Positions 27,291-55,774 of a stretch of DNA of 64,000 bases are shown piece after piece. The notes beneath the pieces are model-generated. The model worked only from the letters and a program-made list of their open reading frames with translations. It was not told the origin of the DNA and did no database searches. This DNA is from Salinarchaeum sp. IM2453 (GTDB lineage: Archaea; Halobacteriota; Halobacteria; Halobacteriales; Salinarchaeaceae). The DNA lies in NCBI RefSeq assembly GCF_019693215.1, contig NZ_CP081183.1, forward strand, positions 2,545,226-2,609,225, in the 5' to 3' direction. A program made the position numbers and the translations under genes. How positions within the stretch are numbered: position 1 is the first letter of the stretch; each line of letters opens with the position of its first letter.

Positions 27291-27596
27291 AACCATGTCA
27301 ATTCCAAATTAATTGTAATCATACATTATATTAACTATATATTTTATTATTTGAGAAACATTATTTATGAAATTAGCTCCCCTAAAACAGAGAAACTAAA
27401 CGATTTATAGCAGTTATGAAGCGGTTTATGAGCGAATCAGAGATATCATTATCACTGTCATCATCAACATCATATGTCCGGATGCGCTTCAGTTATTATT
27501 GATAGATGTCATCTTAGCAACTACAGCAGAAATTTTAAAGTTCTTAGCAATGTGATTGAAATGCGTTCGCTGCAGTACAGATAGTCGTCTATCGAC
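27291..27596. other. AT-rich intergenic region
   Basis: Upstream of the histidine kinase. It is rich in A+T with no recognisable gene or RNA. Confidence 0.4.
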
Positions 27597-39190: not shown

Positions 39191-41563
39191 CTACTTACTG
39201 TTCTGCTGTTTCGCTGCAGCAACTGTTGCCTGCCCGTATGCTATTCCTCCGTCTCCAGGTGGAATATCTTCGTTGATGATGAAATCGAAGTTTTCCGTAC
39301 TGACAACCCGTTCAATTACATTCGTGATCTGCTCGTTGTATGCTACTCCTCCAGCTACTCCAACGGCTGAACAATTACGTTCTTCTGCCGCCTTAACAGC
39401 CAGTGTTGCAAACATTTCTGCCAGATGATACTGGGCCGTTGCTGCAATATCTGCGATTGAAACACCTTCTGAGAGTAAGCTAAGTAGTTCATCGATCAGT
39501 GCTGGTGTATCAATCACTGTTCGACCATTGTATTGTCGTGTTGATTGATCTATTGCGTGTACGGCTCCGGTCTGTGCAACCGCCTCTAATCGCATCGCCG
39601 GTTCTGCTTGGTATTGGCGTTGGTGACAACATCCAAGCAATGCACTCACTGCGTCTAGAACTCGTCCAGCACTGCTTGTGATTGGTGTATTAACATTAGC
39701 GACAAGCTGTCGGTATGCAACAGATAGTTCATCATCAGTAGGAAAAGAAACTGGAGATTGATCGATTACAGATTTGATTCGTGCTTTGTCATACGCTGGA
39801 TGTTCGGATAGAATACCGATAAGCATCCGACCCGGAACCTCTGTTGCTCGGTCACCGCCAGGCATCGGGACCGGATAGCAGCCACCAACGCGATCAAACG
39901 CTGTAAGTGATGTCTCCAAGATTTCCCCTCCCCAAATCGTCTCGTCTGGTCCGTATCCCATTCCGTCAACCGCAATTATGATAGCTCGGTCTTTGTCATG
40001 TTCTGCTAGAACTCCCGCTGCATGTGCATGGTGATGTTGTACAGGGACATGTACATAGTCATGTTCGTCATACTGTTGTTTCGCATAACGAGTTGTGTTA
40101 AAGTCAGGATGAAGATCATATGCGACAGCATCCACCTGCTCTACGTCAAGAAGCGATTGTAGATGCTGAACGGCTGTATTGTATGCCTGCCGTGACGAGA
40201 GATTGTTAGCGCTTCCAATGTGCTGTGTAAGATAACATGCTGACCCATCGAGAATAGCTGGAACAGTATTTCGATCTGCCCCTGCTGCAAACACACTTCC
40301 ACTAGCTGGAGTAGCTAAACCTTGTGGTGCAAACCCCCTAGATCGTCGTATCTGTATTGATCGGTCACCGTGCATACGGATCACAGAGTCATCACATCGA
40401 GCACCAATAGAACGGTTGTGTAACAGAATCCCATCAATGTCATCGCCAAGATCTGAGACCACGGTACTGTTTTCGGTTATTGTTGGCTGTCCAGAGATAT
40501 TTGCAGAGGTAAAGACAATCGGAAAATCAAGATGTTCGAATAGTAGGTGGTGAAGTCCAGAATACGGTAGCATAACCCCGATTGTATGCAAGCCTGGAGC
40601 GATATTCTGAGCTGTGCTAGTGCTATCGTTATCTTTGTCCAGCAGGACAATCGGCTGTTGAAACGACTGTAGTGTTTCGCGTTCAGGTGTTGAAACTACA
40701 GCGATGTCACGTGCTGCCGCAGTGTCAGGCACCATAACTGCAAATGGCTTTGTTGGCCGATTGGTGATCTCGCGAAGATCGGCTACTGTCTTACTGCAGC
40801 GTGCATCACAGACAAGGTGAAATCCGCCTACACCTTTGATCGCCAGTAGACTACCGGACCGGATCGATTGGGCAACGTCGCGTATTGCTTTCGTTCCACT
40901 GCTTTTTGGGTCTGGCGTACCGGGGAATCGGTCACGTTTGTCTTCTGAAGTAGCGAATGTATACTCGGATGCAGTATTGTGTTCGTAGTAATGCAGACTT
41001 GGTCCGCATTCTGGGCATGCAATTGTTTGTGCATGATATCGGCGGTTAGATGGTTCTGTATATCGTTGATGACAGGAATCACACAGAGGAAATGGTTTCA
41101 TCGAGGTTCGTTCACGATCATACGGCATTTTCTCGATAACAGTAAATCGAGGACCACAGTTGACACACGATGTAGCCCAGTAGTTGTAATATGGTGACTC
41201 TTTGTTTTGAATATCTGCAAGACAGTCTTCGCATATTGCGGTATCCGGTGGAATAGGAACTTGGTTCAGAGAGAACTGTTGATCCGAGTTACGTATTGTA
41301 AACTTGTCTGATCCGGTTGGATAGCACTGCTCAGTCTGAATACTATCAACTGACGCAAGCGGCGGATATTCTGTTTGAATTGTTTCTATTACATGATCAA
41401 CTGCCGATGGTGACCCTTCTAATTCGATTTCAACCACGCCTCCAGCATTACGTACGTATCCGCTGACTTCGTATTGTACTGCTGTCCTGTAGACAAACGG
41501 GCGAAATCCAACTCCTTGCACCGTACCGTTAACCGTGACCCGCCTGCGAATCTCTTCAGTCAT
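39191..41563 (-). CDS. hypF: HypF, carbamoyl phosphate-dependent hydrogenase maturation protein
   Basis: A 790-residue multidomain protein, start ATG 41563 (MTEEIRRRVTVNG); a TTG six codons upstream would overlap the hypB stop. N-terminal acylphosphatase (NGTVQGVGFRPFVYRTA), then paired zinc fingers (CEDCLADI, CVNCGPR, CDSCHQRY, CPECGP), a YrdC-like domain (GSLLAIKGVGGFHLVCDA) and a Kae1/TobZ-like C-terminal domain (VPVQHHHAHAAGVLAEHD, GVAGGVAYNEQI). It converts carbamoyl phosphate to a thiocarbamate on HypE, the precursor of the two cyanide ligands of the NiFe centre. It is the last gene of the hydrogenase operon. All catalytic domains appear intact. Confidence 0.93.
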   Translation of the reverse strand: MTEEIRRRVTVNGTVQGVGFRPFVYRTAVQYEVSGYVRNAGGVVEIELEGSPSAVDHVIETIQTEYPPLASVDSIQTEQCYPTGSDKFTIRNSDQQFSLNQVPIPPDTAICEDCLADIQNKESPYYNYWATSCVNCGPRFTVIEKMPYDRERTSMKPFPLCDSCHQRYTEPSNRRYHAQTIACPECGPSLHYYEHNTASEYTFATSEDKRDRFPGTPDPKSSGTKAIRDVAQSIRSGSLLAIKGVGGFHLVCDARCSKTVADLREITNRPTKPFAVMVPDTAAARDIAVVSTPERETLQSFQQPIVLLDKDNDSTSTAQNIAPGLHTIGVMLPYSGLHHLLFEHLDFPIVFTSANISGQPTITENSTVVSDLGDDIDGILLHNRSIGARCDDSVIRMHGDRSIQIRRSRGFAPQGLATPASGSVFAAGADRNTVPAILDGSACYLTQHIGSANNLSSRQAYNTAVQHLQSLLDVEQVDAVAYDLHPDFNTTRYAKQQYDEHDYVHVPVQHHHAHAAGVLAEHDKDRAIIIAVDGMGYGPDETIWGGEILETSLTAFDRVGGCYPVPMPGGDRATEVPGRMLIGILSEHPAYDKARIKSVIDQSPVSFPTDDELSVAYRQLVANVNTPITSSAGRVLDAVSALLGCCHQRQYQAEPAMRLEAVAQTGAVHAIDQSTRQYNGRTVIDTPALIDELLSLLSEGVSIADIAATAQYHLAEMFATLAVKAAEERNCSAVGVAGGVAYNEQITNVIERVVSTENFDFIINEDIPPGDGGIAYGQATVAAAKQQNSK

Positions 41564-41577
41564 ATACAATGCTGTGA

Positions 41578-42363
41578 TCAATGATGTGCGTGGTCGTGTG
41601 TCCGAAGCTCGTCGATTTGAGTAAGCAACGACTGCATTGTCTCGGGGTGCTGAGCGTTTGTTTTGAAAACTGGCATATCTGGGTTAATATCTTTGATGTC
41701 CGCATGCATTTGATCAACGCTTACACCGACAGCAGCAGCGATATCAACTTTATTTATAACACCAATATCACAGGACTGAAACAAGACAGGATGCTTTCGA
41801 ACAACATCGTCGCCTTCAGTTGTACTGACTACAAGAACCCGTGCCTGTGCTCCAAGTGGAAAGTCTGCTGGACATACCATATTCCCGACATTCTCAATAA
41901 ATAGCACATCAATTTCAGACAAATCAAAGTCAGAGAGTGCGTTCTCAACCAGCCCTGGATCAAGATGGCACTCTTTCCCAGTACTAACATCACTTACAGC
42001 GACATCGTGCTGTTTGAATCGCTGTGCATCGTCATCCCCAGCAACATCACCAACAATGACGCCGATAGAGGCGTCAGTTCCAATGTGATCGATGACTTGC
42101 TCGATAAGTGTCGTTTTTCCACTTCCTGTCGCTCCGAGGAATTCAATACTTAAAATATCATGCTCATGTGCAATCCGTTCGTGTAGCCGTTCTGCCTCTT
42201 TTTGATACTGCGACAGTATGTCATCTGTTTCTATGGAATGATCGTGTTCGTGGGAATCGTGATTCCCAACTCGGTGAGCACGGGTCACTAGTGAGTTCAC
42301 GAGTTGGACTACCGGTTTTGTGTCGATACCGTTGGATTTCGGAATGTTATGCATGCAATACAT
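41578..42363 (-). CDS. hypB: HypB, nickel-insertion GTPase
   Basis: A 261-residue protein with start ATG 42363, 4 bases beyond the hypA stop. It has P-loop GATGSGKTTLIEQVIDHIG, switch-like region GDVAGDDDAQRF, CHLDPGLV, IENVGNMVCPADF and GVINKVDIAAAVG (NKxD). Two His-rich stretches (NHDSHEHDHS near residue 35, DHAHH at the end) suggest nickel storage. HypB delivers Ni to the large-subunit precursor with HypA. The lengthened, His-rich form is similar to bacterial nickel-storing HypB proteins. Tightly packed between hypA and hypF. Confidence 0.93.
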   Translation of the reverse strand: MYCMHNIPKSNGIDTKPVVQLVNSLVTRAHRVGNHDSHEHDHSIETDDILSQYQKEAERLHERIAHEHDILSIEFLGATGSGKTTLIEQVIDHIGTDASIGVIVGDVAGDDDAQRFKQHDVAVSDVSTGKECHLDPGLVENALSDFDLSEIDVLFIENVGNMVCPADFPLGAQARVLVVSTTEGDDVVRKHPVLFQSCDIGVINKVDIAAAVGVSVDQMHADIKDINPDMPVFKTNAQHPETMQSLLTQIDELRTHDHAHH

Positions 42364-42367
42364 GGTG

Positions 42368-42757
42368 TCACGTGGGTTTGCTTGTGGAGCTGCTCGTTTC
42401 CTGTAATCGTATATTCGATAGGTAGCATCCATCACCTTGTGTGAACGTGATTTGACTGTTACACTCTGGACATCGATCTGTTGGGATGGTCATTACGGAA
42501 TCATCAATCGACGGGGGAGTGCCTGACCAACCACAGCTGCATTTTCCGAGAGTCTCGATACGCTCAACGGCAATGGATGCGTCCTCGAGAAGCGTACTGA
42601 CGGCAATTGTCTCAATGCAGAATTCCAATTGTGTTGGATTAATATGAGTCCGTTCTCCAACACTGATAGTGACTGACTGAACCCTGCGATATTCAGACTC
42701 ATCAACGACTGAGGAAACTTCATCAATCAGGTCCTGCGCGATTGTCATTTCATGCAT
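42368..42757 (-). CDS. hypA: HypA, nickel metallochaperone
   Basis: A 129-residue protein beginning MHEMTIAQDLIDEV with the Met-His-Glu nickel site. The zinc site is seen as CSCGWSG and CPECN, close to the typical CXXC-CXXC arrangement but with the first pair as CXC. HypA works with HypB to insert nickel after the Fe(CN)2CO group is in place. Its stop is four bases from the hypB start. Confidence 0.92.
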   Translation of the reverse strand: MHEMTIAQDLIDEVSSVVDESEYRRVQSVTISVGERTHINPTQLEFCIETIAVSTLLEDASIAVERIETLGKCSCGWSGTPPSIDDSVMTIPTDRCPECNSQITFTQGDGCYLSNIRLQETSSSTSKPT

Positions 42758-42764
42758 AGGTTGA

Positions 42765-43796
42765 TCAGCAAATGCGTGGCAGTTGTTGTCCCTGAGGTTC
42801 GGTCATGTACCGCTTTCCGAATCCAGTATCAAGGATAACACTACCCTGTCTTTGATCAGTTATCTCTCCAATAATAGCGGCATTGCGCCCAGCCTCAGTA
42901 TCTCGTATTGCGGATAAAACACGATCGGCATCTGGCTCGTCAACACAGAAGACAACTTTGCCCTCATTAGCGACATACAGCGGGTCAATTCCTAATAACT
43001 CACCCGCAGATGCGACGGCATCGTCAACCGGGATTGCCTCCTTGTCTATGGAAGCACCGACGTCAGCTTTCTGAGCCATTTCATTGAGTGCTGTTCCGAG
43101 GCCACCTCGTGTTGGATCCGTCATTGCTGTTATTTTACCGGCCTGTAGTGCAGCGTCAACAACCTCGTTAACCGGCGCGATATCGCTAGTTAAGTTACCT
43201 GAGATATCAATACCCTCACGTTCAGCCAAAAGTGCAATACCATGATCACCAACTGTACCAGAGACAATTATCTTATCCCCAGGTGACTGACTGGCATCAG
43301 ATATGTGACCTCCTTTGTCAATATCGCCGATTGCTGTCGTATTAATCGCGAGCGTGTCTATTTCACCGCTGCCCATTACTTTCGTGTCCCCGGTTGTGAC
43401 TGTACATCCCACCTCATCGCAGGTTTGTTTCATTGAATCGAGTACAGCATCGATTGTTTCGACCGCTGTCCCCTCTTCAATAATCAACGAACAAGTAATT
43501 GAGAGTGGAGTAGTTGCTCCCATCACTGCCAGATCATTGACAGTTCCAGCAATAGCGAGCTGTCCAATATCACCACCAGGGAAAAAGAGCGGGGAAATAA
43601 CGTGACTGTCTGTAGTTATCACGACAGATTTGGTGCCGATTTCATGAACAGCTCCATCATCCATTGCCTGTAAGCCAACGGTTGTACTAGATGTCTGTCG
43701 TCCATTAAATCGAGAGACAACGTAGTCCTCAAGATATGATCGCATCTTCTTGCTGCCAGCTCCATGGGCGATAGTGATAGTATCTTCGTCGGTCAT
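42765..43796 (-). CDS. hypE: HypE, cyanide-ligand-forming maturation protein
   Basis: A 343-residue PurM-like protein (SKKMRSYLEDYVVSRFNGRQ, VITTDSHVISPLFFPGGDIG, TTGDTKVMGSGEIDTLAIN). It ends with GQQLPRIC: the conserved C-terminal PRIC whose Cys carries the thiocarbamate that HypE dehydrates with ATP to thiocyanate. The start ATG overlaps the hypD stop by four bases, an indication of translational coupling. A part of this gene is duplicated at 38350-38415. Confidence 0.93.
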   Translation of the reverse strand: MTDEDTITIAHGAGSKKMRSYLEDYVVSRFNGRQTSSTTVGLQAMDDGAVHEIGTKSVVITTDSHVISPLFFPGGDIGQLAIAGTVNDLAVMGATTPLSITCSLIIEEGTAVETIDAVLDSMKQTCDEVGCTVTTGDTKVMGSGEIDTLAINTTAIGDIDKGGHISDASQSPGDKIIVSGTVGDHGIALLAEREGIDISGNLTSDIAPVNEVVDAALQAGKITAMTDPTRGGLGTALNEMAQKADVGASIDKEAIPVDDAVASAGELLGIDPLYVANEGKVVFCVDEPDADRVLSAIRDTEAGRNAAIIGEITDQRQGSVILDTGFGKRYMTEPQGQQLPRIC

Positions 43797-44899
43797 AGTT
43801 CCGGTAACCCTCCATATTCGAGTTTAATTTTACAAGCCCCCTCATCAGAGACCATGCAGGCTCCAACCGGATTATCTGGTGTGCATTCCTCGCCAAAGAG
43901 ATCACAATCATCCGGAGACGAGATGCCAGCCATAATATCCCCACAGATACACTGATCGGTCAACATATCCGTGTTATCTGACACCGACTCAGTTTCAAAT
44001 TGCTGTCTAGCACTGTGCTGGTGATACTCATCTCGGATAGTAAAGTTTGCATCTGGGATGTTGGCGATCCCTCGCCATTCTCCTGAGGTGCGTTCAAACA
44101 CTTGCTCAATAGCCTGCATAGCTGCTTTGTTGCCCTCTTTTGAGACACATCGAGGATATGCATTTTTTACTGCCACTTGGTCGCATTCAACTAATTCTAA
44201 GATTTCTTGAACACCATATAGAACGTCAATCGGTTCGAACCCTCCCACGACCACCGGTATGTCGTGCCGTTTAGCAACCGATCCGAACAACTCATATCCG
44301 GTAATCGTTGCGGCGTGTCCAGCAGCTAAAAATGCATCAACATCTGTCGATGGCATTTCGGCGACTACTTCCATTGCAGGGGGAACGTACTTGTGTGCAG
44401 AAAGAACGTAGAAATTATCTGGTGGATTGCTTTGAAGCACAGCAGCCGTCGAAGCTGCTGTTGTTTCAAATCCCGTCGCAAAGAATATAACATCTTGGTC
44501 CGGATTCTCTTCTGCGAGAGTTACTGCATCGCTTGCACTGTAGACAACCTCAACAGACGCGCCATTTGCTTTGGCGTCAGCTAAGCTTTTGGAAGATCCA
44601 GGAACACGGAACATATCGCCGTATGTTGCAACCAGTTTACCTGATTCGGCAAGGGCTACCGCTTCGTCTACTTCAGGCATATTCGTGACACATACCGGAC
44701 ACCCTGGGCCCATTGTTACGGAGAGTGAAGAAGGTAGCAGTTCACGCAGGCCGAACTTAGCGATCACCTGTTCATGACTTCCACATACGTGCATGACTTC
44801 GATATCACGGTCGATGGAATCCATCTGCTCGTCGATTGTATCAGCTAATTCCTCTGCTTTCTGTGTGTCACGGTATTTCAGGTCTCCTAAACTCGTCAT
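43793..44899 (-). CDS. hypD: HypD, iron-sulfur scaffold for Fe(CN)2CO assembly
   Basis: A 368-residue protein with CGSHEQVIAKFGLRELLP, GPGCPVCVTNMPEVDEA (GPGCPVC motif), ATGFETTAASTAA, and a C-terminal [4Fe-4S] region CICGDIMAGISSPDDC...CTPDNPVGAC. HypD forms the Fe(CN)2CO unit with HypC. It lies 2 bases after the hypC stop and overlaps hypE. All motif cysteines are present, so the protein should be active. Confidence 0.93.
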   Translation of the reverse strand: MTSLGDLKYRDTQKAEELADTIDEQMDSIDRDIEVMHVCGSHEQVIAKFGLRELLPSSLSVTMGPGCPVCVTNMPEVDEAVALAESGKLVATYGDMFRVPGSSKSLADAKANGASVEVVYSASDAVTLAEENPDQDVIFFATGFETTAASTAAVLQSNPPDNFYVLSAHKYVPPAMEVVAEMPSTDVDAFLAAGHAATITGYELFGSVAKRHDIPVVVGGFEPIDVLYGVQEILELVECDQVAVKNAYPRCVSKEGNKAAMQAIEQVFERTSGEWRGIANIPDANFTIRDEYHQHSARQQFETESVSDNTDMLTDQCICGDIMAGISSPDDCDLFGEECTPDNPVGACMVSDEGACKIKLEYGGLPEL

Positions 44900-44901
44900 A
44901 G

Positions 44902-45207
44902 TTATTCTGATGGAACATGCCGCTTGCTATCCTCAAGATCAAGTTCTGCTTCTGCCGATACACCAATCTCCTCAAGTGCCGTCTCTTGGTCGTCCTCAAA
45001 TAGCGTCTCGTAAATTGCCATCGTCTTTTCGACCTCCTGTTTTGGGATTTTCCGAATCGCAAAGCCAGCGTGATTAAGGATGTAGTCACCTTCTTGTACA
45101 TCGGCATCAACAACATCCAGCCGAACTTCACGCTCAACACCCCAGAAATCAACCGTCGCTTGGTGGTCGTTAATTTCTTGAATTTCACCGGGAACACCAA
45201 GACACAT
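44902..45207 (-). CDS. hypC: HypC, hydrogenase maturation chaperone
   Basis: A 101-residue OB-fold protein. The true start is the ATG at 45207, giving the conserved MCLGVPGEI with the essential Cys as residue 2; a start three codons upstream would hide it. A HAGFAIRKI phrase at about residue 48 is also conserved. HypC carries the Fe group to the hydrogenase large subunit. Its start follows the protease stop by one base. Confidence 0.93.
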   Translation of the reverse strand: MCLGVPGEIQEINDHQATVDFWGVEREVRLDVVDADVQEGDYILNHAGFAIRKIPKQEVEKTMAIYETLFEDDQETALEEIGVSAEAELDLEDSKRHVPSE

Positions 45208-45208
45208 T

Positions 45209-45730
45209 CTATTCACCCCCGTCAGATATTGTTGTGTCGTATGTTTCTGCGTCTAAACCATTTGAGACGAGGATGTCAACAATCACGTCCACAGCGGTCT
45301 GAACGGCATTGGATACGTCCTCTGAAATTTCTTCTCCAAAGCTTGCAGAAGAAATACCAATGCCGACAAGGTATATGTCGGATGGGAATTCGTCCTCATA
45401 AATTGTGTTTCCCATTCTGAGAACATGCTCAACAGATAGATCATGGAGTGAATGCCCGAGGTTTTCTTCTCGAAGTTTATCTGGGGTTAGAACATAGACC
45501 TCGCCAGTTTCTAGTCCACTAATTGCATCGACAAGGATTGCTTGGTCATGATTACGCAACCGTGCAAGGACTCGAAACCCATCAACACCCACGCGCTCTG
45601 TATGAGCTATGTCACTGACGTCTTCGCTTTCAAGTTCCTCAACAACACGTAAGCCAACGCCGTCATCACCCATCACCGCATTCCCAATACCCAATACAAG
45701 CGGCTTTTGCTGTTGTGCTTTGGCAGACAT
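45209..45730 (-). CDS. Hydrogenase maturation protease (HyaD/HycI type)
   Basis: A 173-residue protein with GIGNAVMGDDGVGLRVVEEL (the GNxxxxDDGxG motif with a metal-binding Asp/Glu) and LVDAISGLETGEVYVLT, and HDLSVEHVLRM, the His and Asp set of the family. It removes the C-terminal tail of the large subunit after the nickel is bound. The tail to be removed here is likely the 20 residues after DPCIACAVH. Placed directly after the large-subunit gene, which is 3 bases away. Confidence 0.9.
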   Translation of the reverse strand: MSAKAQQQKPLVLGIGNAVMGDDGVGLRVVEELESEDVSDIAHTERVGVDGFRVLARLRNHDQAILVDAISGLETGEVYVLTPDKLREENLGHSLHDLSVEHVLRMGNTIYEDEFPSDIYLVGIGISSASFGEEISEDVSNAVQTAVDVIVDILVSNGLDAETYDTTISDGGE

Positions 45731-45732
45731 AG

Positions 45733-47247
45733 TTAGCTCTCAGTAGGTGCAGGAACAGGCTCTATCTCCTGTTTGAACTCTTCGTCAGGTGTTGAATAAT
45801 GGACGGCACAGGCGATACACGGATCATAGCTTCTGATCACATGCTCAACTTCGACAGGATTCGATTCGTCTGGAACAGACGTTCCAATGACAGCCTGCTC
45901 AACTGGACCGGGAGTGTCATTATAGTCTCGCGGGGAAAGATTCCATGCCGAAGGCGTGACAACCTGGTATTTATCTATTTCTCCATCTCGAATTTGTACC
46001 CAGTGTCCAAGTGCTCCCCGAGCAGCTTCCGTTAGTCCGAACGCATCGGTATTGTCGGGCTCTTCGAATGTGCCCATGAACGGAGCATCAAGATCGATGT
46101 TGTCTATCCACTCATGTGATTTTGCGGCCAGCCGTACAATTTCGTGTACTCGGGCTAACACGCGGCTAAATACACTAACTCCAAATTCATCCGCAATATC
46201 TGTGATCAGTGGGTCCTGATCAACCATCATCCGCGCAAGAGGTCCGGCTTCAGCAACTTTGCCATCATATCGAGGACATTTCGCCCATGTGTATGCATCG
46301 TTTTCTTCGACGTATTCTGGTTCGGTAATGCCATCGAATGGATGCTTGCTGCCTTCGTAGTCTGAGTACCACGAATACTTGACATGTTCTTTAATTTTCT
46401 CTTGGTCAAGCGGATGAATTGTACCGTCGTGGAATCCGCCAGGAAGCCACTTTTCTCCTGTTGAGTCGGGATATGCCCCGTACGCGATGAAGTGTCCGGG
46501 GCCCTCACCGATGTCAGTAAGCCCGAGCTCCGGGCCATATTGGATAATAACTCCAACATCGCTGTTTGCATGACTGGCATCTTCGTCAATCCATTCAAGA
46601 ACATCATCAACACTCTCATTCGCTAACCATCGCTCGACGCTGCAGCCAAGAACTGTTTCTTCAAGGAATGTTTGAACATCTGAGAGAAGTGAGGCTGCTT
46701 TTGCTTTGTCTTGAATAGATGGTTGGACAGGAGCGCCGGCTGGAACAAATGTTGAGTGAGGACGCTTTCCAGCAAAGATTCCGTGGATTTCAGTCAGATC
46801 CACACGGCGTTTAACAGCTTTTTTGTATGAACTACCCTCAAGCGGCTCAAACCGAGCGACAAGCTCTGGATACGCATCGTGGTCAGAATACTTCTCATTT
46901 GTCAGATCCGGACCAAACAGAACATACGTGTGAGCAGCATGGCTCATCATCGTTTCTGTCCCAAGCAGTAGGTTTCGTACTCGTTGTCCATTGGGAGGAA
47001 CAGTAGCATTGAAGGCATCATCAAGTGTTCGTGCTGATGCCATATTATGTGAGGAAGGACATACTCCACAGATTCTTGGGGTGATAACGAGTGCATCCTT
47101 GGGATCTCGGCCGCTGAGAATTTGTTCAAATCCACGGAACATTGCCGAGGTACTTTGGGCATCTGCTACTTCGCCATCAGAAAGATCGACAGTGAAATCT
47201 AGATGGCCTTCAAGCCGCGTGACAGGACTGAGATCTAGTTCTCCCAT
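45733..47247 (-). CDS. [NiFe] hydrogenase large (catalytic) subunit
   Basis: A 504-residue protein, start ATG 47247. A GGAGGTGA ribosome-binding site seven bases upstream overlaps the stop of the small-subunit gene, so the downstream ATG is preferred over the one at 47262. L1 motif RICGVCPSSH and L2 motif DPCIACAVH provide the four Ni-binding Cys. The 19 or so residues after the final His (STPDEEFKQEIEPVP...) are the removable tail. N-terminal MGELDLSPVTRLEGHLDF contains the conserved Glu. It splits or forms H2. No Tat signal is expected on this subunit. The closest type by memory is the uptake hydrogenases of group 1/2; a tree would be needed. Confidence 0.93.
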   Translation of the reverse strand: MGELDLSPVTRLEGHLDFTVDLSDGEVADAQSTSAMFRGFEQILSGRDPKDALVITPRICGVCPSSHNMASARTLDDAFNATVPPNGQRVRNLLLGTETMMSHAAHTYVLFGPDLTNEKYSDHDAYPELVARFEPLEGSSYKKAVKRRVDLTEIHGIFAGKRPHSTFVPAGAPVQPSIQDKAKAASLLSDVQTFLEETVLGCSVERWLANESVDDVLEWIDEDASHANSDVGVIIQYGPELGLTDIGEGPGHFIAYGAYPDSTGEKWLPGGFHDGTIHPLDQEKIKEHVKYSWYSDYEGSKHPFDGITEPEYVEENDAYTWAKCPRYDGKVAEAGPLARMMVDQDPLITDIADEFGVSVFSRVLARVHEIVRLAAKSHEWIDNIDLDAPFMGTFEEPDNTDAFGLTEAARGALGHWVQIRDGEIDKYQVVTPSAWNLSPRDYNDTPGPVEQAVIGTSVPDESNPVEVEHVIRSYDPCIACAVHYSTPDEEFKQEIEPVPAPTES

Positions 47248-47248
47248 C

Positions 47249-48244
47249 TCAGTCACCTCCACTATCCTCTGTTAGTCGTTCGGGCTTAGCTGCTTTCATG
47301 AATCCGGCTCCAAGAGAATATGCAAGCGCTTTCAGACCAGAGTGTGGTGTGAGCCCATCACGTCGCTCAAAGAACGGCATCTGTGCCTCTGGGAAGTCTG
47401 GCTGGTTACAGCCGTGACATGGAATCCCGACTTGTGTCAGACTCTTTTGTCGGTTCCATTTGTCTCGGTTACAGGGAGCGTGTGTATTTGGCCCTTCACA
47501 TCCCATATTCAGGTAAAGACACCCTTGGTCGCCGAATTCCTCGGCTGCTTCCTTGTACTCGTAGTGCTCGTTGCGGGGACATCCTTGGTGAACTGTGACG
47601 TCGTCAAAGAACGTTTTTGGCCGGTTATATTCGTCCAAAGACAGATCTTCACCACTCAATAACGCGCCAAGTGATTGAATGACCCAGTCAGGATGGACTG
47701 GACACCCTGAAATGTTAACCACGGGGAGTCCTGCGTTTGATCTAAACTCTTCTCCAAGGAGTCCGCCTTTCTCGCGACGATGAAACTGCAACCCTGTTGC
47801 ATCGGTCGGATTGGGGCCAGCAGCTGGAATGTTGCCGAAAGCCGCACATGTTCCAACAGCCACAACAAATTCTGCCTCCGGTGCTAGCATTTCTACCCAC
47901 TCCATCACGCTCTTTGATCCAATCAGGCATGCCATACCAGTTCCATCGGGTCCGGTTGGAACTGATCCCTCAACGATTAGCACATCGAGTGAAAGGTCTC
48001 CGCGTCCGAATTTCTCCAGTTTATCAAGGACTTCGGGACCGCTCGTCGGGTTAATGGTGTTCATGTACCCGAAATTAAAGTCAAACTCATCCATTGCTCC
48101 ATACAGATCGGGCTGCTGTACATTCATCATTGACATCGAACAGCCTGCGTCGGTCTGCCCTTGTAGCCATAAGACGTTGGCTGTCCCAGATTTGTCTGAG
48201 TCAGCTTGTGTGTGGGCTTGCTTACTCGACACTGTTTCTGACAT
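47249..48244 (-). CDS. [NiFe] hydrogenase small subunit, Asp in proximal-cluster motif
   Basis: A 331-residue protein, start ATG 48244. There is no Tat signal and no C-terminal membrane helix, so the enzyme appears cytosolic. Proximal cluster: VLWLQGQTDAGCSMSMM, where the usual CxxC is DxxC, with the other two ligands in VGTCAAFGN and NISGCPVHPDW. Distal cluster: TVHQGCPRNEHYEYK (His and Cys) and DQGCLYLNMGCEG. Medial cluster: HAPCNRDKWN and GIPCHGCNQPD, three Cys as in a [3Fe-4S] site. The H-x2-C-x-RNEHYE spacing is close to that of group 2-type (Hup/Huc-like) small subunits. It passes electrons from the active site to an unknown acceptor. Confidence 0.92.
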   Translation of the reverse strand: MSETVSSKQAHTQADSDKSGTANVLWLQGQTDAGCSMSMMNVQQPDLYGAMDEFDFNFGYMNTINPTSGPEVLDKLEKFGRGDLSLDVLIVEGSVPTGPDGTGMACLIGSKSVMEWVEMLAPEAEFVVAVGTCAAFGNIPAAGPNPTDATGLQFHRREKGGLLGEEFRSNAGLPVVNISGCPVHPDWVIQSLGALLSGEDLSLDEYNRPKTFFDDVTVHQGCPRNEHYEYKEAAEEFGDQGCLYLNMGCEGPNTHAPCNRDKWNRQKSLTQVGIPCHGCNQPDFPEAQMPFFERRDGLTPHSGLKALAYSLGAGFMKAAKPERLTEDSGGD

Positions 48245-48300
48245 TGGCCGACATATTTCACGGTAATAAATAAACGTAATATTACACACAGAGATTTGCC
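48245..48300 (-). promoter_or_regulatory. Hydrogenase operon promoter with palindrome
   Basis: On the minus strand a TATA-like TTTATTTATTACC (48262-48274) lies 18-30 bases before the ATG of the small subunit, so the transcript is probably leaderless or nearly so. Immediately upstream is the perfect palindrome GTAATATTAC (48276-48285), placed where an activator or repressor could overlap the BRE. The same site in the diverged repeat at 38542-38551 reads GTAACATTAC. Confidence 0.5.
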
Positions 48301-48373
48301 GGAGAACCGCATCATAGTACAAATAAACGTCGTGATTTTTCAGATGTTGAAAATTTGCCCACAGGAAGGTAAT
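48273..48373 (+). repeat. Promoter-region repeat, intact partner
   Basis: The partner of 38539-38640 (see there), in direct orientation 9.7 kb away. It includes the GTAATATTAC palindrome and the TTTTTCAG...TTGAAAATTTGCCCACA block. It is upstream of the hydrogenase operon, so it is the functional copy. Confidence 0.65.
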
Positions 48374-48639
48374 AGCAAACGCTCGAGTACGCTTCCTGAA
48401 GTTGCCTTAGATAGGGAGTAATAGAAGTTTAGTAAAATTATATATAATATAAACTATATAATTCAAATAACATCACTTTAGGAGTATTTTTGAAGAATTA
48501 GTATATTTTTTGGAACAGGATTATATTTTTTATTCCTATACTATATACCTTATTTTTTGAATTATATTGTCTTATTTGCTATTTGTGTTGAAAAATGGAA
48601 TAAATCTTTTGAGAATCATTTCTTTATTTATTTGTGTAT
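48374..48639. other. Very AT-rich intergenic region
   Basis: A+T-rich DNA between the hydrogenase promoter and the end of the acyl-CoA ligase gene. No gene or RNA was recognised. Confidence 0.4.
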
Positions 48640-50340
48640 TTATTTGATATTAGTTGACCTCTCTTTTTCTTCCAGTTCCCGAAGCTTAACGCGCTGGATT
48701 TTTCCACTGCTGGTCATTGGCAATGAGTCGGTGAATTCTATTTCGCGCGGGTACTCATGTTTTGCTAATTTCCCCTTTGCAAGTTCTTGAAGTTCTGATC
48801 GAAGATTTTCATCACCAGCAACGTCAGAAGCCAATTTAACATGTGCCTTAATAATCTCTCCTCTTTTTTCATCTGGCACCCCAATTACACCTGCCTGCTC
48901 GACATCAGGATGTTCTAGCAAAACACGTTCTACCTCAAGCGGGCCAACTCTGTATCCTGACGTGATAATAACGTCATCTGCTCGGGATTCGAACCAGACA
49001 TATCCATTTTCGTCCATTTTAGCATGATCGTCAGTTAAATACCAGCCGTTATGTTCCTTATTAGCAGTTGCATCTGGCCGATCAAGATACTTCTTGAAGA
49101 AGACCCGGTCATCCTGAGGCTTAACAGCAATTTCGCCGACTTCTCCTGGTGGAAGTTTTTCGTGCGTTTCTGGATCACGAATAGTTACATCGTATCCTGG
49201 AAGTGGCTTGCCCATACTTCCTGGCTTTACATCAAACCATCGCGATGAGTTCGATATGACAAGATTTAGCTCGGTTTGTCCGTAATATTCGTTAACAGCA
49301 AGATTATCAAAGTTCTGCTCTGCCCAGTCTAATATCTCCGGAGTAAGTGGCTCTCCTGCCGAAGCAATTGTCTGTAAAGCTAAATCGTACTCTGTTGGAT
49401 CTGCATCCATAAGCATCCGGAGTGCTGTAGGGGGAATCAAAGCGTTACTGATCTCATATGTTTCACAGAGGTCGAAAACGGAGTCAGGATCAAATCCTTG
49501 CATCGGCGCTGCAACAACTGTTGTACCGTGGTGCCAAGAGCCCATCAATAATCCTCCGAGTGCTGATGCCCATGCCCAGTCAGCAGGAGTCCAGTTAATG
49601 TTGTCACTGCTCAGGTTGCTATTGAAAAAGTTATGTGCAGCCGCAGCACGCCCCAGCCAAAGTCCGTGTCCGTGTAATACTCCCTTTGGTGGACCGGTTG
49701 ATCCGGATGTATACATGATTGTGCTGTCCGTTTCCGGTGTTGCCTCGACAATTTGCTGCTTATCCGAATACCCAGAGACGAACTCGTCGAAAGTGTGTGT
49801 CGGGGCGTTAACAGTCAAATCCGGATAGTTACTAGGCCCACTGCCGACATACCATGGGTGGCTATTCAACTGAATGGCAACATCAAGTCCATCATACTCA
49901 CTGGTAGCAGCTTCGACATCATCTGCTACGATTGGATCAAATATGATTGCATCCAATTCCGCATCGCTGGTTCGGTACGATATAGCATTTTCACCGTACA
50001 TCGTCGTCATCGGCACAGAAACAGCACCAAGTCGCCAAGCTGCTATGTGGGTTGTTGGGGTTTCGACCCGCTGAGGTGCAATGACTCCAATTCTATCTCC
50101 TTTCTCAATTCCGGAGTCAGCAAGTGCATTTGCTAACTGACCGGAAAGCCTATCGATATCTGCAAAGGTATACTGTTCTTCTGATACTGCATCGATGAGT
50201 GCTACCCGATCTTCCGGTCCCGGATCGGAATGATTTCGTAAGAAATCTCTTGCCGGATTAAATGAGTCAGGTAGATCCCATGTAAATTGTTCGCGAGCCT
50301 TCCTGTAGCTACTGAAGTCAGGCATGACTTGCCATGACAT
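48640..50340 (-). CDS. AMP-forming acyl-CoA synthetase
   Basis: A 566-residue ANL-superfamily ligase, start ATG 50340 (MSWQVMPDF); a later ATG at 50325 is also possible. Motifs: STIMYTSGSTGPPKGVLHGH (P-loop-like), NEYYGQTELNLV (A5-like Tyr-Gly-Gln-Thr-Glu), GWYLTDDHAKMDENGYVWFE (Tyr/Asp of A7), SRADDVIITSGYRVGPLEVE (hinge Arg), and MTSSGKIQRVKLRELEEKE with the catalytic Lys. It joins a carboxylic acid to CoA with ATP to AMP. It resembles medium-chain acyl- or acetyl-CoA synthetases; the acid is not known. The neighbourhood has a TRAP transporter and thiolase, so organic acid use is plausible. Confidence 0.9.
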   Translation of the reverse strand: MSWQVMPDFSSYRKAREQFTWDLPDSFNPARDFLRNHSDPGPEDRVALIDAVSEEQYTFADIDRLSGQLANALADSGIEKGDRIGVIAPQRVETPTTHIAAWRLGAVSVPMTTMYGENAISYRTSDAELDAIIFDPIVADDVEAATSEYDGLDVAIQLNSHPWYVGSGPSNYPDLTVNAPTHTFDEFVSGYSDKQQIVEATPETDSTIMYTSGSTGPPKGVLHGHGLWLGRAAAAHNFFNSNLSSDNINWTPADWAWASALGGLLMGSWHHGTTVVAAPMQGFDPDSVFDLCETYEISNALIPPTALRMLMDADPTEYDLALQTIASAGEPLTPEILDWAEQNFDNLAVNEYYGQTELNLVISNSSRWFDVKPGSMGKPLPGYDVTIRDPETHEKLPPGEVGEIAVKPQDDRVFFKKYLDRPDATANKEHNGWYLTDDHAKMDENGYVWFESRADDVIITSGYRVGPLEVERVLLEHPDVEQAGVIGVPDEKRGEIIKAHVKLASDVAGDENLRSELQELAKGKLAKHEYPREIEFTDSLPMTSSGKIQRVKLRELEEKERSTNIK

Positions 50341-50396
50341 GTAAAACAAAATCTATATTATTTGGTATTAATGGTTTCGGTTATACCAGTGACAAG

Positions 50397-50828
50397 TTAA
50401 TTTGTGCTTTCTGCAATCAATACAGGGATGTCCGTCTGTAGGATCACAGACTGTGCAACACTCCCAAACAATGCTTTTCCAACAGGACTTCGTTTACGTC
50501 CACCGACAACAATCATGTTCGCGGTAATTTCATTTGAGAGCTGTATAATTGTATCAACAGGATCCCCATGACGGCGATACAACTCAAGTGAATAGCCTTT
50601 ATGTTGAAGTTCATCAGCAAGGGACGCAATAGGTTGTGGGAACTCCTTCTCATAAAACTCTTCAGAGTTGATTGTTGACCACTGATCACTTTCGACTTCA
50701 AACTCTTCAAATACATTGAGGAGATGAAGGTTCGTTATTTCAGGATTAAATGGAAGACCAAGAAGTGTATTTTTGATATTAGTTATTTGGTTCTCTTCTT
50801 CTTCCACGGGAACAAGAATGTCTACCAT
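50397..50828 (-). CDS. Universal stress protein (UspA family)
   Basis: A 143-residue protein with N-terminal strand MVDILVPVEEEENQ and C-terminal VVGGRKRSPVGKALFGSVAQ followed by SVILQTDIPVLIAES, matching the Usp ATP-binding G-x2-G-x9-G(S/T) loop. Small Usp proteins are widespread in haloarchaea and respond to stress. It is placed downstream of nothing evident; the acyl-CoA ligase gene lies 56 bases further in the same direction and could be cotranscribed. Confidence 0.85.
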   Translation of the reverse strand: MVDILVPVEEEENQITNIKNTLLGLPFNPEITNLHLLNVFEEFEVESDQWSTINSEEFYEKEFPQPIASLADELQHKGYSLELYRRHGDPVDTIIQLSNEITANMIVVGGRKRSPVGKALFGSVAQSVILQTDIPVLIAESTN

Positions 50829-50935
50829 GGTAATCCAACTATTATGTATTTAGCATCTTAACTTTTGATGAGAAAATAACACGCTGGTGGTCTACGTGAA
50901 TTATTGGACACCAAAGTTAAGTGCAATCGATTACC

Positions 50936-52129
50936 ATGATAGTTTGCATGTCGAGCAGTCAATTAGTGTCAGATAAAGATACACTGAGCACACCACATAT
51001 CGACGGCGTGGGGATGACAGAGTTCACAGCTAATGATGACCGGGCGCTGCTCAAACTTCTCGAGGTCGCCGCTGATCGCGCGCTTTCCGACAGTAGTACT
51101 TCTCGTTCTGAGGTTGATTCAATACACATCGGAAATATGGCTGCTGAGATATTCAATGGACGGTCTGGACTCTCTAATGCGTTTGTTTCTAAGCTTGGAT
51201 TTGTTGGATCATCTGTTCATCGAGTTGAGAATACGAGTGCGAGTGGTGCGAGTGCGTTCAATGATGCAGTTGCCGCAGTGTCGTCTGGTCAGGCAGATGT
51301 TGCTTTGGCAGTAGGTGGTGAGAAAATGTCGGAGGCCTCTACCGAAGATGCAACGGAGATCATCCGTCAAGTTACACATGCTGATGAACGTCAACAAGGA
51401 GTTACTCTTCCTGGGATGGCTGGCTTAGCAGCTAATTATTATCTTAGAGAGACTGAGGCTACACGCCATGATTTAGCAAAGGTAGCAGTAAAAAATCACA
51501 GAAATGCTAAGCATAATGACTTCGCGCAATTCAACAAAAACGTCGAAGCTAGTGACGTGCTTGAATCACCGGAAATTGCCTCTCCTCTTCGGTTATATGA
51601 CTGTTGTCCAACGAGCGATGGAGCAGCAGCCGTTCTATTGACTACGGCAGAAACTGAAGTACGTGTGCCAGCGTCTCAGAGTATATCAGGAACACATGCT
51701 GTAGGAGATCGGATGAATCCGTTTCGAATTTCGTCAGTTGAAAACGCAGCAGAACGAGCCTATCAAGAAGCTGGTATTCAACCAAATGATATTGACGTGG
51801 CAAGTATCCACGATGCGTTTACAATTCTTGAGTGGATTGAACTGGAGGAGTTAGGGCTAGCACCGGAATATAAAGCCTGGAGATTAACTCGAGAAGGAGA
51901 GACAAAAAGAACAGGAAAAATGCCAGTTAATCCAGGGGGAGGTCTTAAGGCTCGTGGACATCCTTTAGGAGCAACAGGATTGGCTCAAATTGTTGAGATG
52001 ACATGGCAACTCAGAGAGCAAAATCATATCGGATGTAGACAGGTTAAGAATGCGAGTACAGCACTTACAGCTAACGTAGCTGGGTTTGGTAACAACTGTG
52101 TATGCACCATCTTGGAGGGGCCAAAATGA
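50936..52129 (+). CDS. Thiolase-like protein (SCP2 type) lacking the catalytic Cys
   Basis: A 397-residue thiolase-fold protein, start ATG 50936 (another ATG at 50948). Family motifs are present: a 'VENTSASGASAF' segment where the active-site nucleophile normally lies in CASG, AVGGEKMSEASTED, DCCPTSDGAAAVLL, ASIHDAFTILEWIELEELG and NPGGGLKARGHPLGATGLAQ with the catalytic His. The nucleophile position reads Ser (codon AGT) instead of Cys. The gene overlaps the following DUF35 gene by ATGA, the usual pair for archaeal thiolases and some aldolases. It may be a retro-aldolase-like or otherwise altered enzyme, or inactive. Confidence 0.85.
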   Translation: MIVCMSSSQLVSDKDTLSTPHIDGVGMTEFTANDDRALLKLLEVAADRALSDSSTSRSEVDSIHIGNMAAEIFNGRSGLSNAFVSKLGFVGSSVHRVENTSASGASAFNDAVAAVSSGQADVALAVGGEKMSEASTEDATEIIRQVTHADERQQGVTLPGMAGLAANYYLRETEATRHDLAKVAVKNHRNAKHNDFAQFNKNVEASDVLESPEIASPLRLYDCCPTSDGAAAVLLTTAETEVRVPASQSISGTHAVGDRMNPFRISSVENAAERAYQEAGIQPNDIDVASIHDAFTILEWIELEELGLAPEYKAWRLTREGETKRTGKMPVNPGGGLKARGHPLGATGLAQIVEMTWQLREQNHIGCRQVKNASTALTANVAGFGNNCVCTILEGPK

Positions 52130-52500: not shown

Positions 52501-54516
52501 TTAGCTTCTGGTAATATTTAGTGTTCGTTGCAAGTCCCAATCGAAATAATACATAATAGCAAGTACAGCAAGCATAAACAAGGCAGTCTGGGTGAGCATA
52601 GATGGTGCGAACACTACTCCAAGTCCTATTACAAAGTAGATCAGGCGATGTAGATAAGTCAATCCCTCCTTCCTGCTATTAAGACCGATACTGACTGATA
52701 TAAACCCAGATAACACAACTACTGATACAAATAGAGTAGCAACAGATGGGTACAGCAGCGGGTCGTTGGCGATAAATGCAAATGGTAGTAAGAACATTGG
52801 ATATCCGATCTTTAGTGACTCAACTGCTGTTTCCCAGAAGTTTGAGCCTGAAATTCCCTGTGCAATAATCACTGATAAAGCGATTGGTGGAGTGATATTC
52901 GATACAATCGCAAAATAAAACACAAACATGTGTGCGCTGAATTCTTCAACACCAATCTGTACAAGAGACGGAGCAACCAGAATAGCGACAATCATGTACG
53001 CAGCAGTTGTCGACATACCCATGCCAAACAGAATGGATGCTATCATAGCCAGGAGAAGCATCACGATGATTGATCCGCCAGCCAAGCCAACTAACTGGGA
53101 AGACAGTTGTTGTGCAAACCCGGTTACAATTAACGCTCTGATCACGATTCCCAAACTTGCCAGAAGAATCGTAATGTTGAGAGTCGCTTCTGCTCCTCTG
53201 CGGAACCCTTCAATACTCTGTCGGATATATAACCTCATTTCGTCCTGTGTTGCTTTTTCGTCTGTTCGTGAGGCCTCAGCGAGCACTTTCACCAGCCGAA
53301 GACCTAGAAGGGCAAGGATGGCAAAGAATCCAGCCCGCATGGGATCACTTCGAATAATAACGAGATAGTACAGCAAGACTGCAAACATTCCAACATACTC
53401 GTAGAAGCTAGCAAGTCGTCTGAGATATTCTGTGGCTGCAGGAGCTGGCCGGTTGACTACAATGTTACTTTTTTCAGAAGAATTGAGTGATATCGACACG
53501 GAAACTGCAGCAAAGAAAAGAAGAGCTGGAACGACAGCTCCAATGATAATCTCTGAGTAGTTTGGTTCGATCAGTTCTGCCATCAAAAACGCACCAGCAC
53601 CCATGATTGGAGGGAGAACTTGTCCACCGCAGGAGGCAACCGATTCTATTGCACCGGCAACTTTTCCGCGGTAGCCATTTTCCTTCATGAGTGGGATAGT
53701 AAAAGAGCCGGTTGTTGCTGTATTCGCAGCGGTTGAACCGTTGATTGATCCCATGAACATACTCGCTGCGACTGCTACCTGTCCAATTTGGATATACTGT
53801 TGTCGAGCAGCAACCCTTGTCATCGCCTTAATGAACGCAGCCATGCCTCCGTATTTTTCCATAATACCAGCAAGGAGGAGAAATATAACGACCCAAGTTG
53901 CAGAGATTTCAAGAAGACTTCCGAACAATCCTTCCATTTCGATGGTATTCATTGTTATAATTCGCTCAACACTGAGTCCCCTGTGGCTCAGCGGGCCTGG
54001 CATCAACGGTCCATAGTATGAATAGATCAGCCCAAATATTGCAATACTAGTAATAAGCCGTGAGATATGGACGAGGGCGATAAGTACTAGTAATATAACT
54101 AGCGCTCCCAAGTATATGTGCAAGTTATCGTAAACACCAGCAGTCCGTACAATAGCGTCATAGTCTCGCATAAACACGTACATCGGTATAACAGACACAA
54201 CTGAATACGCCAAGTACGCACCAGAGAGTAGTTTGCCTCGGATGGTCGTCTGATCCATTTTCAGCATGCGCGTGATTCCCCAAAGTGACAAAATCATTGC
54301 AAGATGAACGATAGCATGCTGTGACCGGGGAATAGAGAATGTATATGCAAACCACATATGATAAACAAAGAAAATAGTTGATATAATATAGACAAACCAT
54401 TCTATCGGGCTTGAAGAGAAGATAGACGAGTCATACTCTTCGTTGAATTTCTCATCGATCTCACGCTCAACATCTGATAATGTCTTACTTTGTGTGTCAG
54501 CGGAATTCGTCGACAT
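52501..54516 (-). CDS. TRAP transporter fused permease (TAXI type)
   Basis: A 671-residue protein with about 16-18 membrane helices, the fused small (DctQ-like) and large (DctM-like) permease of TAXI-TRAP systems. The large part has FMGSINGSTAANTATTGSFT, PLMKENGYRGKVAGAIESVA and CGGQVLPPIMGAGAFLMAEL, the conserved DctM motifs, and later FGMGMSTTAAYMIVAILVAP and SNITPPIALSVIIAQG. It imports a small organic acid with sodium or another ion. It is preceded, 18 bases away, by the solute-binding protein gene in the same direction. Confidence 0.92.
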   Translation of the reverse strand: MSTNSADTQSKTLSDVEREIDEKFNEEYDSSIFSSSPIEWFVYIISTIFFVYHMWFAYTFSIPRSQHAIVHLAMILSLWGITRMLKMDQTTIRGKLLSGAYLAYSVVSVIPMYVFMRDYDAIVRTAGVYDNLHIYLGALVILLVLIALVHISRLITSIAIFGLIYSYYGPLMPGPLSHRGLSVERIITMNTIEMEGLFGSLLEISATWVVIFLLLAGIMEKYGGMAAFIKAMTRVAARQQYIQIGQVAVAASMFMGSINGSTAANTATTGSFTIPLMKENGYRGKVAGAIESVASCGGQVLPPIMGAGAFLMAELIEPNYSEIIIGAVVPALLFFAAVSVSISLNSSEKSNIVVNRPAPAATEYLRRLASFYEYVGMFAVLLYYLVIIRSDPMRAGFFAILALLGLRLVKVLAEASRTDEKATQDEMRLYIRQSIEGFRRGAEATLNITILLASLGIVIRALIVTGFAQQLSSQLVGLAGGSIIVMLLLAMIASILFGMGMSTTAAYMIVAILVAPSLVQIGVEEFSAHMFVFYFAIVSNITPPIALSVIIAQGISGSNFWETAVESLKIGYPMFLLPFAFIANDPLLYPSVATLFVSVVVLSGFISVSIGLNSRKEGLTYLHRLIYFVIGLGVVFAPSMLTQTALFMLAVLAIMYYFDWDLQRTLNITRS

Positions 54517-54534
54517 GCTATTGATATAAGAATA

Positions 54535-55623
54535 TTACTGTTCCTCTGGTGGAGGGGTCAAGTCATAATCATCCCAAAATCCGGCATTTTGGTAGTATTC
54601 GTATGCTCCTTGGTGGAATGGAACGTCTGGATGGAGAGTTCCAAGAAACATGTCTGGATCTGGGAAGAAATCCATTGCACCGTTTTGGTCAAGCAGGTCC
54701 TCACCGTGTTCATGAGTCATCTCAGCGATGTCATACACGAGATCTGGATCGGCGTCTTCTTTCACCACATACAGGTATGTCAGCGTGAACGAATCGACCG
54801 GATCAGACCAGTTATCAGAAAACTCTCCTACTGTTTCTTCATCTAGTTCATGGTATGTTGAATAAGCCAAATCTTCATCAAGGGACTGGATTGTTGAATC
54901 TGAGAATTCGAGTGGCTCCCAGTCAACGGTTTCGTCTATTTCTTGTAGCCATCCTGTCGGGTCATCCTCATTCACGGTCCATGTAAAAGCTGCATCGACA
55001 GTTCCATCTCTCAGTGCTGCCGGGATATCAGCGAAGGCCATGTATCGATTGTCGATGTTGTCCATTCCAATCTCTTGATCAACAAGCCATTCGACCGGTG
55101 AACGCGTTCCCGATCCAGCTGAAGAGATTGCAATTGGTCGATCCTCAAGATCATCCCATCCACTTACTTCCTCAGCATTGTATACACCAAAGTTGTAAAA
55201 TGCCATGTATCCGCGTACTTGTCGAATCGAATCAAAATCTTCGAGAGGTTCGTCTTCAAAGTCTCCTTCATCTGGCGAATCCTCCAATAATTGTGTTGTT
55301 GTTCCGGATATCTCAAACTCACCCTGATCAAGTCTTCTGTATGATGCTCCTGTTCCTTCAGTAACGATTGGTTCAATCTCTGTGTCTAGTAAGTCTTCGC
55401 TGTCCATATATTCAGTCCACGTCGAACCAATCTGAAAAGAAGAAGAACCTTCAGAAGAAGTTCCAAGAGACCATTCATCTTCGCTATCTACCTGTAATAC
55501 ATCAAGGCAACCAGCAAGCCCCGTTATTCCTATAGTCCCTGCTGCAGCAGCACCTTGGATATATTCTCGGCGACTCGTCTGACTTGAAGAATCGTTTGAC
55601 TGTGAAGTGTTAGATTCTGTCAT
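54535..55623 (-). CDS. TAXI-family TRAP solute-binding lipoprotein
   Basis: A 362-residue protein. Start ATG 55623 (MTESNTSQSNDSSS) gives a twin-arginine signal SRREYIQGAAAAGTIGITGL with lipobox LAGC, so it is a Tat-exported lipoprotein tethered to the membrane. Body: SLGTSSEGSSSFQIGSTW, TEGTGASYRRLDQGEFEI, PIAISSAGSGTRSPVEWL, DGTVDAAFTWTV, as in TAXI proteins binding glutamate/2-oxoglutarate-type or other acids. It would pass substrate to the adjacent fused permease. No other domain. Confidence 0.9.
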   Translation of the reverse strand: MTESNTSQSNDSSSQTSRREYIQGAAAAGTIGITGLAGCLDVLQVDSEDEWSLGTSSEGSSSFQIGSTWTEYMDSEDLLDTEIEPIVTEGTGASYRRLDQGEFEISGTTTQLLEDSPDEGDFEDEPLEDFDSIRQVRGYMAFYNFGVYNAEEVSGWDDLEDRPIAISSAGSGTRSPVEWLVDQEIGMDNIDNRYMAFADIPAALRDGTVDAAFTWTVNEDDPTGWLQEIDETVDWEPLEFSDSTIQSLDEDLAYSTYHELDEETVGEFSDNWSDPVDSFTLTYLYVVKEDADPDLVYDIAEMTHEHGEDLLDQNGAMDFFPDPDMFLGTLHPDVPFHQGAYEYYQNAGFWDDYDLTPPPEEQ

Positions 55624-55774
55624 GTTACCGTCTGTCCCTGTCTTCATCATTGGAGGATAATAAAACTTTATCAAAGTATATGATTTATTTCATTAACTGA
55701 CCTAATATCGATTTACTTGAAACTGATGTTGGTGTACCCTGAGATATTTATACAGAGGATAGGTATTGTCTACC

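Follow-up and report, generated by a model that had tools for sequence, protein, structure and literature searches.

A predicted cytoplasmic group 2 [NiFe] hydrogenase in a mosaic operon of the haloarchaeon Salinarchaeum sp. IM2453

Group 2 [NiFe] hydrogenases act either in H2 uptake or as sensors, and the characterised energy-converting members are uptake enzymes. The closest solved relative of the enzyme considered here is Huc, a 2a hydrogenase of Mycobacterium (7utd, 7uus), in which menaquinone is contacted by K212, Y229 and Y301 of the small subunit HucS (PMC10017518). Published archaeal group 2 enzymes are the 2e hydrogenases (Hys) of Sulfolobales (PMC5037454, PMC11018855). Several haloarchaea have been published as H2 oxidisers, and the hydrogenases described from them are exported group 1a HydABC enzymes (PMC5437934, PMC6176080). 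No study linking Halobacteria, "group 2e" and NiFe-hydrogenase was found among open-access papers.

The window, i.e. the whole stretch of 64,000 nucleotides that was analysed, carries on its reverse strand (39191-48244) nine co-directional genes with at most a few bases of gap or overlap between neighbours (Table 1). Assignment to curated families bears out the complete operon read in an earlier note from the sequence, in the order small subunit, large subunit, protease and HypC-D-E-A-B-F. The motifs which that note had considered intact were all present on re-reading, namely L1 (RICGVC) and L2 (DPCIACAVH) of the large subunit, the PRIC end of HypE, the MC of HypC and the MHE of HypA. L2 is followed by a C-terminal extension, the substrate of the protease, and the locus thus combines the four Ni-binding Cys, the FeS ligands, the protease and HypA-F of a [NiFe] hydrogenase with a full Hyp set. 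Also confirmed are the lack of a Tat signal on the small subunit, whichever start codon is chosen, and, judging from the families of the neighbours, the absence of genes for cytochrome b, a diaphorase or ferredoxin next to the operon. These neighbours encode an acyl-CoA synthetase, a universal stress protein, a thiolase and a TRAP transporter DctM with an NMT1-like binding protein (48640-50349, 50397-50828, 50921-52129 and 52501-55674). The flanking synthetase has no strong match in the sister genus, and an AMP-binding synthetase-like gene 30% identical to it lies near the hydrogenase of genome G589 (see below). An AlphaFold2 model of the small subunit from a nine-sequence input reached a mean pLDDT of 50, which does not suffice to search for similar folds.

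Table 1. Positions of the hydrogenase genes and associated features in the window.
Feature	Position	Strand	Family or basis
Upstream gap, AT-rich; no hucM-like gene; TATA-like stretch some 200 bases upstream of the ATG	48245..48639	.	
Small subunit, 331 aa	47249..48244	-	PF01058 and PF14720; no Tat signal; group 2 clade
Asp32 codon, at the first proximal-cluster Cys position	48149..48151	-	Small-subunit alignment
Large subunit, 509 aa, GTG start	45733..47262	-	PF00374
Hydrogenase maturation protease, 173 aa, HycI/HyaD-type	45209..45730	-	TIGR00072, PF01750
HypC, start at Met-Cys; longest ORF 44902-45216	44902..45207	-	TIGR00074
HypD	43793..44899	-	TIGR00075
HypE, C-terminal PRIC	42765..43796	-	TIGR02124
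HypA, MHE start	42368..42757	-	PRK00762/TIGR00100
HypB, N-terminal His-rich stretch; longest ORF to 42435, overlapping HypA	41578..42363	-	TIGR00073
HypF, first ATG; longest ORF from TTG 41581	39191..41563	-	TIGR00143

The host genome is a single contig of 2,656,678 bases (98.55% complete, 0.63% contaminated), its kin fall within an order of known haloarchaea that includes Natrarchaeobaculum, and the GC content and acidic excess of both subunits agree with those of the other genes. In the large subunit the acidic excess is 0.098, versus 0.018 in its closest relative. The locus is therefore not a bacterial contaminant; the haloarchaeal host proposed earlier is upheld, and the contig, which as a bacterial contaminant would have undone that proposal, proved to be haloarchaeal. 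The genome (2.66 Mb, about 47% GC) lacks COX1 and bd oxidase, and in the sister genus of the same family (G001, G002) the loci have 67-69% GC and both oxidases are present, a marked difference for so small a family.

Both subunits find their best PDB match in Huc (small subunit, 7utd_B, E=1.8e-78; large subunit, 7uus_A, E=9.5e-114). Across 394 Halobacteriota genomes the closest relatives were those of G589 (61% identity), G429 (50%), G459 (49%) and G453 (47%). A large-subunit search of genome contigs gave matches in Mycolicibacterium only. Judging from its content, G589 would belong to the Archaeoglobi (it is of the class of family f21, carrying Archaeoglobi-type hydrogenases). The subunit phylogeny proposed as a check in the earlier note, which had missed this affinity, placed both subunits in the Huc-like group 2 clade rather than with the usual haloarchaeal type. 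The large subunits of the window and G589 form a clade (100/99) joined to bacterial group 2 (2a and 2b) with 100/99; the small-subunit tree has the same topology (100/100), and the Tat-bearing archaeal enzymes of G429, G459 and G453 come next outside. Relative to the group 2 references in the trees, which were 2a (Huc) and 2b (H2 sensors) only, the window and G589 enzymes appear as the deepest sampled branch of group 2, sister to the sampled bacterial enzymes. Against these references, membership of group 2 agrees with the missing Tat signal, and 2a is monophyletic without the window's enzyme. Forcing the large subunit together with haloarchaeal HydB was rejected (AU test, p-AU 1.4e-5), and neither the HydB clustering nor the Tat signal and cytochrome b HydC of group 1a were found. 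Group 1h does not fit either, given the proximal D-x-x-C and the distant, long-branched position of its representative (Cupriavidus HofG).

The ligands of the FeS clusters set the enzyme further apart. Alignment of the small subunit gives D32, C35, C133 and C181 as proximal ligands, C258, C276 and C279 with Leu in the fourth position as medial ligands, and H219, C222, C242 and C249 as distal ligands. In an alignment of about 55 small subunits, Asp at the first proximal position together with a retained second Cys is confined to the window and G589, a trait that the earlier note had missed; the corresponding motif is Cys-x-x-Asn in Huc-type enzymes and Cys-x-x-Asp in Cupriavidus HofK (1h). The fourth medial position is Lys in most Huc enzymes, and the distal His, retained here, is Gln in Huc. 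The three [3Fe-4S] ligand sets of Huc (proximal C-x-x-N, no distal His) are thus absent. We infer that three Cys and one Asp hold the proximal cluster, and the ligand types suggest a medial [3Fe-4S] cluster and, at the distal position, a [4Fe-4S] cluster with the conventional His/Cys ligation. As a separate observation, nearly all haloarchaeal HydA copies (L014-L040, L048, L081 and L082) carry Asp, or in some cases Glu or Gly, instead of the first medial Cys, a clade-wide feature; HydA of L034 (G363) combines a proximal C-x-x-D with a medial Glu. In the small subunits of G334 (L035) and G119 (L039) the C-terminal halves are unaligned and the distal and medial ligands are lost; these are probably frameshifted copies or sequence errors.

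With respect to the electron acceptor, K212 and Y301 of HucS correspond to K231 and Y309 of the window's small subunit, and Y229 corresponds to L245, with Y244 one place earlier. By this alignment menaquinone may be reduced directly; against it stand the one contact of three that differs and the contribution of the conserved Lys, which is a backbone carbonyl only. HucM belongs to Pfam DUF1641, and homologues accompany the subunit genes in Thermus and Sulfobacillus; phmmer, which divergent homologues may escape, found none in the window, in 20 kb on either side or at G589, which also weighs against this route, as it leaves no evident means of docking at the membrane. A search of the genome for Ni_hydr_CYTB (PF01292), one part of the electron-partner search that had been called for, yielded a single homologue, which sits away from the hydrogenase in an AOR-like operon. 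The run in question (L159:6373-10494 in G000:C1:2184001-2203900) encodes a Cys-rich Tat protein, an AOR-like oxidoreductase (by eye), a small protein and the cytochrome b (PF01292), and possibly represents a quinone-linked aldehyde oxidoreductase. Alternatively, the acceptor of the hydrogenase may be a soluble protein encoded elsewhere in the genome.

The maturation genes have another affinity, which the earlier note had also overlooked. HypD is 75% identical to that of the haloarchaeal genome G171 versus 39% to that of G589, and HypC (57-69%), HypE (65% at best) and HypB (59% at best) likewise resemble their counterparts in haloarchaeal group 1a operons; to G589 these four proteins are 38-40% identical. 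The hyp genes of G589 are 37-40% identical (HypA 29%) and differently arranged. A concatenated HypD/E/F tree places the window within the haloarchaeal clade (100/100). In addition, the order protease-hypCDEABF is common to the window and to plasmid pAArc1-02 of Natrarchaeobaculum, where it is preceded by hydA-hydB-cytochrome b. By its gene relationships, the operon is a mosaic of haloarchaeal Hyp genes and non-haloarchaeal subunits, and a non-haloarchaeal archaeon is the probable source of the latter. A tree of the protease did not separate the two affinities, so that this gene may have arrived with either the subunits or the hyp genes. The simplest reading would be that a foreign subunit pair replaced the exported hydABC in a haloarchaeal maturation operon; the events may also have run in the opposite order, with the hyp genes replaced instead.

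The earlier note had held hydrogenases to be rare in haloarchaea. Some [NiFe] hydrogenase was found in 41 of the 394 sampled Halobacteria, HypD being present in the same 41 genomes, and in 40 of the 380 good genomes (about 10%); rarity is thus limited to the present kind, which turned up in none of the other haloarchaea sampled. Two genomes of another genus in the same family have no [NiFe] hydrogenase. Most full-length haloarchaeal large-subunit matches are 34-39% identical to the window's enzyme, and those resembling it are "group 1a" HydAB exported by the Tat route, the operons that were read also having a cytochrome b gene. Far more distant and longer hydrogenase-like large subunits (open frames of 659-719 aa) occur in G148, G237, G257, G280, G297, G305 and G313. 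Selenocysteine at in-frame stops was also considered for some haloarchaeal large subunits, and in the four that were read the stop after L2 was the ordinary gene end.

Neither COX1 nor cytochrome bd was found in the host genome, while the Haloferax volcanii control and the sister genus were positive for both. COX1 is also missing from G013 and G038, which are probably Halodesulfurarchaeum; haloarchaea of this type are published anaerobes (PMC5437934), so this absence was as expected. On the strength of the two oxidase families, the host is apparently anaerobic. Its genome encodes six molybdopterin enzymes, four of which have Tat-like N-termini and lie beside FeS partners and membrane partners that by eye resemble NrfD, and two of which are soluble and formate dehydrogenase (FdhF)-like, above the TIGR01591 cut-off. 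We consider it reasonably probable that the operon encodes a cytoplasmic two-subunit uptake hydrogenase of group 2 which feeds menaquinone for anaerobic respiration. H2 would be split at the NiFe site, and electrons would pass from the proximal cluster (three Cys and Asp) through the medial [3Fe-4S] to the distal [4Fe-4S] cluster. Menaquinone would then be reduced, with no HucM stalk involved, at a Huc-like site of the small subunit, and menaquinol re-oxidised by NrfD-type molybdoenzyme complexes (Phs/Psr-like, Ttr-like). The subunit genes, presumed to come from a non-haloarchaeal archaeon, would now stand beside the protease and hypCDEABF in the usual place of hydAB and cytochrome b. A path from H2 through menaquinone to reductases of sulfur or related compounds is favoured because COX1 and bd are absent and quinone-linked molybdoenzymes are present.

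Of the two roles proposed earlier, a fermentation valve is the poorer fit and H2 uptake in support of anaerobic respiration the better one, since group 2 comprises uptake and sensory enzymes, quinone-linked molybdoenzyme operons are present and COX1 and bd are missing. An H2-evolving redox valve, or a formate hydrogenlyase formed with the two soluble formate dehydrogenase-like proteins, would agree with the cytoplasmic location and the apparently anaerobic host. We nevertheless regard it as improbable: characterised energy-converting group 2 enzymes work in uptake (PMC10017518), no ferredoxin, diaphorase or formate genes are linked to the operon, and the medial [3Fe-4S]-type ligation, by analogy with Huc, would favour oxidation. 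Even less can be said for an H2 sensor like those of groups 2b and 2c, a very unlikely reading despite the group 2 placement and a PAS histidine kinase in the window (25086-27296). That kinase lies 12 kb off, outside the operon, and the large subunit has a C-terminal extension and an operon-encoded protease, whereas Cupriavidus HoxC ends at the histidine; the 2b pattern of no extension, a dispensable protease and a kinase partner is not seen.

Comparison with Huc and Hys bears on the remaining alternatives. Huc, the closest solved relative of both subunits, shares with the window's enzyme the missing Tat signal, the missing fourth medial Cys and the alignment of two of three menaquinone contacts. 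However, the window's enzyme is only 41-43% identical to it, falls outside 2a, has a proximal D-x-x-C rather than C-x-x-N and a distal His in place of Gln, and belongs to an apparently anaerobic host without a HucM gene at the locus. Scavenging of atmospheric H2 under air, as by Huc, accordingly has hardly any probability; as the main role it was rejected on the absence of COX1 and cytochrome bd, the proximal and distal ligand pattern of Huc is not shared, and the hucM, NifU and NHL genes that accompany 2a operons are lacking as well. A haloarchaeal form of 2e in a new host, perhaps with HysM/HucM elsewhere in the genome, is a more serious candidate, although we judge it unlikely. Subgroup 2e is archaeal, sister to 2a and about 45% identical to Huc (PMC11018855), a distance similar to that of the window's enzyme. 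By description, however, Hys is encoded by hysLSM with a HucM-like subunit (PMC11018855) and all its reported hosts are Sulfolobales that are aerobic or facultatively so, while no DUF1641/HucM gene lies beside the window's operon or at G589. The G589 hydrogenase (L073) is closer, with 61% identical, Tat-less subunits, the Asp-x-x-Cys proximal motif and no cytochrome b or HucM, but it is not acidic and its hyp genes are distant and differently arranged. The haloarchaeal group 1a HydABC of Halodesulfurarchaeum and Natrarchaeobaculum, from the same class of organisms, shares the protease-hypCDEABF order and close HypC/D/E/B, and probably serves the same kind of anaerobic respiration. Its subunits differ in clade and sequence (34-39% identity), in the Tat signal of HydA, in the cytochrome b and in the medial Cys replaced by Asp.

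Tentatively, and with some doubt, the enzyme could represent a new archaeal group 2 subgroup of anaerobes, characterised by an Asp-ligated proximal cluster and cytoplasmic, direct reduction of menaquinone without a HucM stalk, and swapped for HydABC into a haloarchaeal maturation operon. Reports of archaeal group 2 enzymes have so far come from Sulfolobales alone, aerobic or facultatively aerobic ones, and studies of 2a have treated it as the enzyme with which aerobes take up atmospheric H2. A deep branch in a host without COX1 and bd would help to sort which traits of Huc, such as the HucM stalk and the all-[3Fe-4S] chain, belong to trace-gas scavenging and which are group-wide. The mosaic operon indicates that one catalytic core can take the place of another beside an unchanged set of maturation genes, and thus offers a test of HypC and protease specificity. 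Haloarchaea would gain a cytoplasmic, cytochrome-free route to the use of H2.
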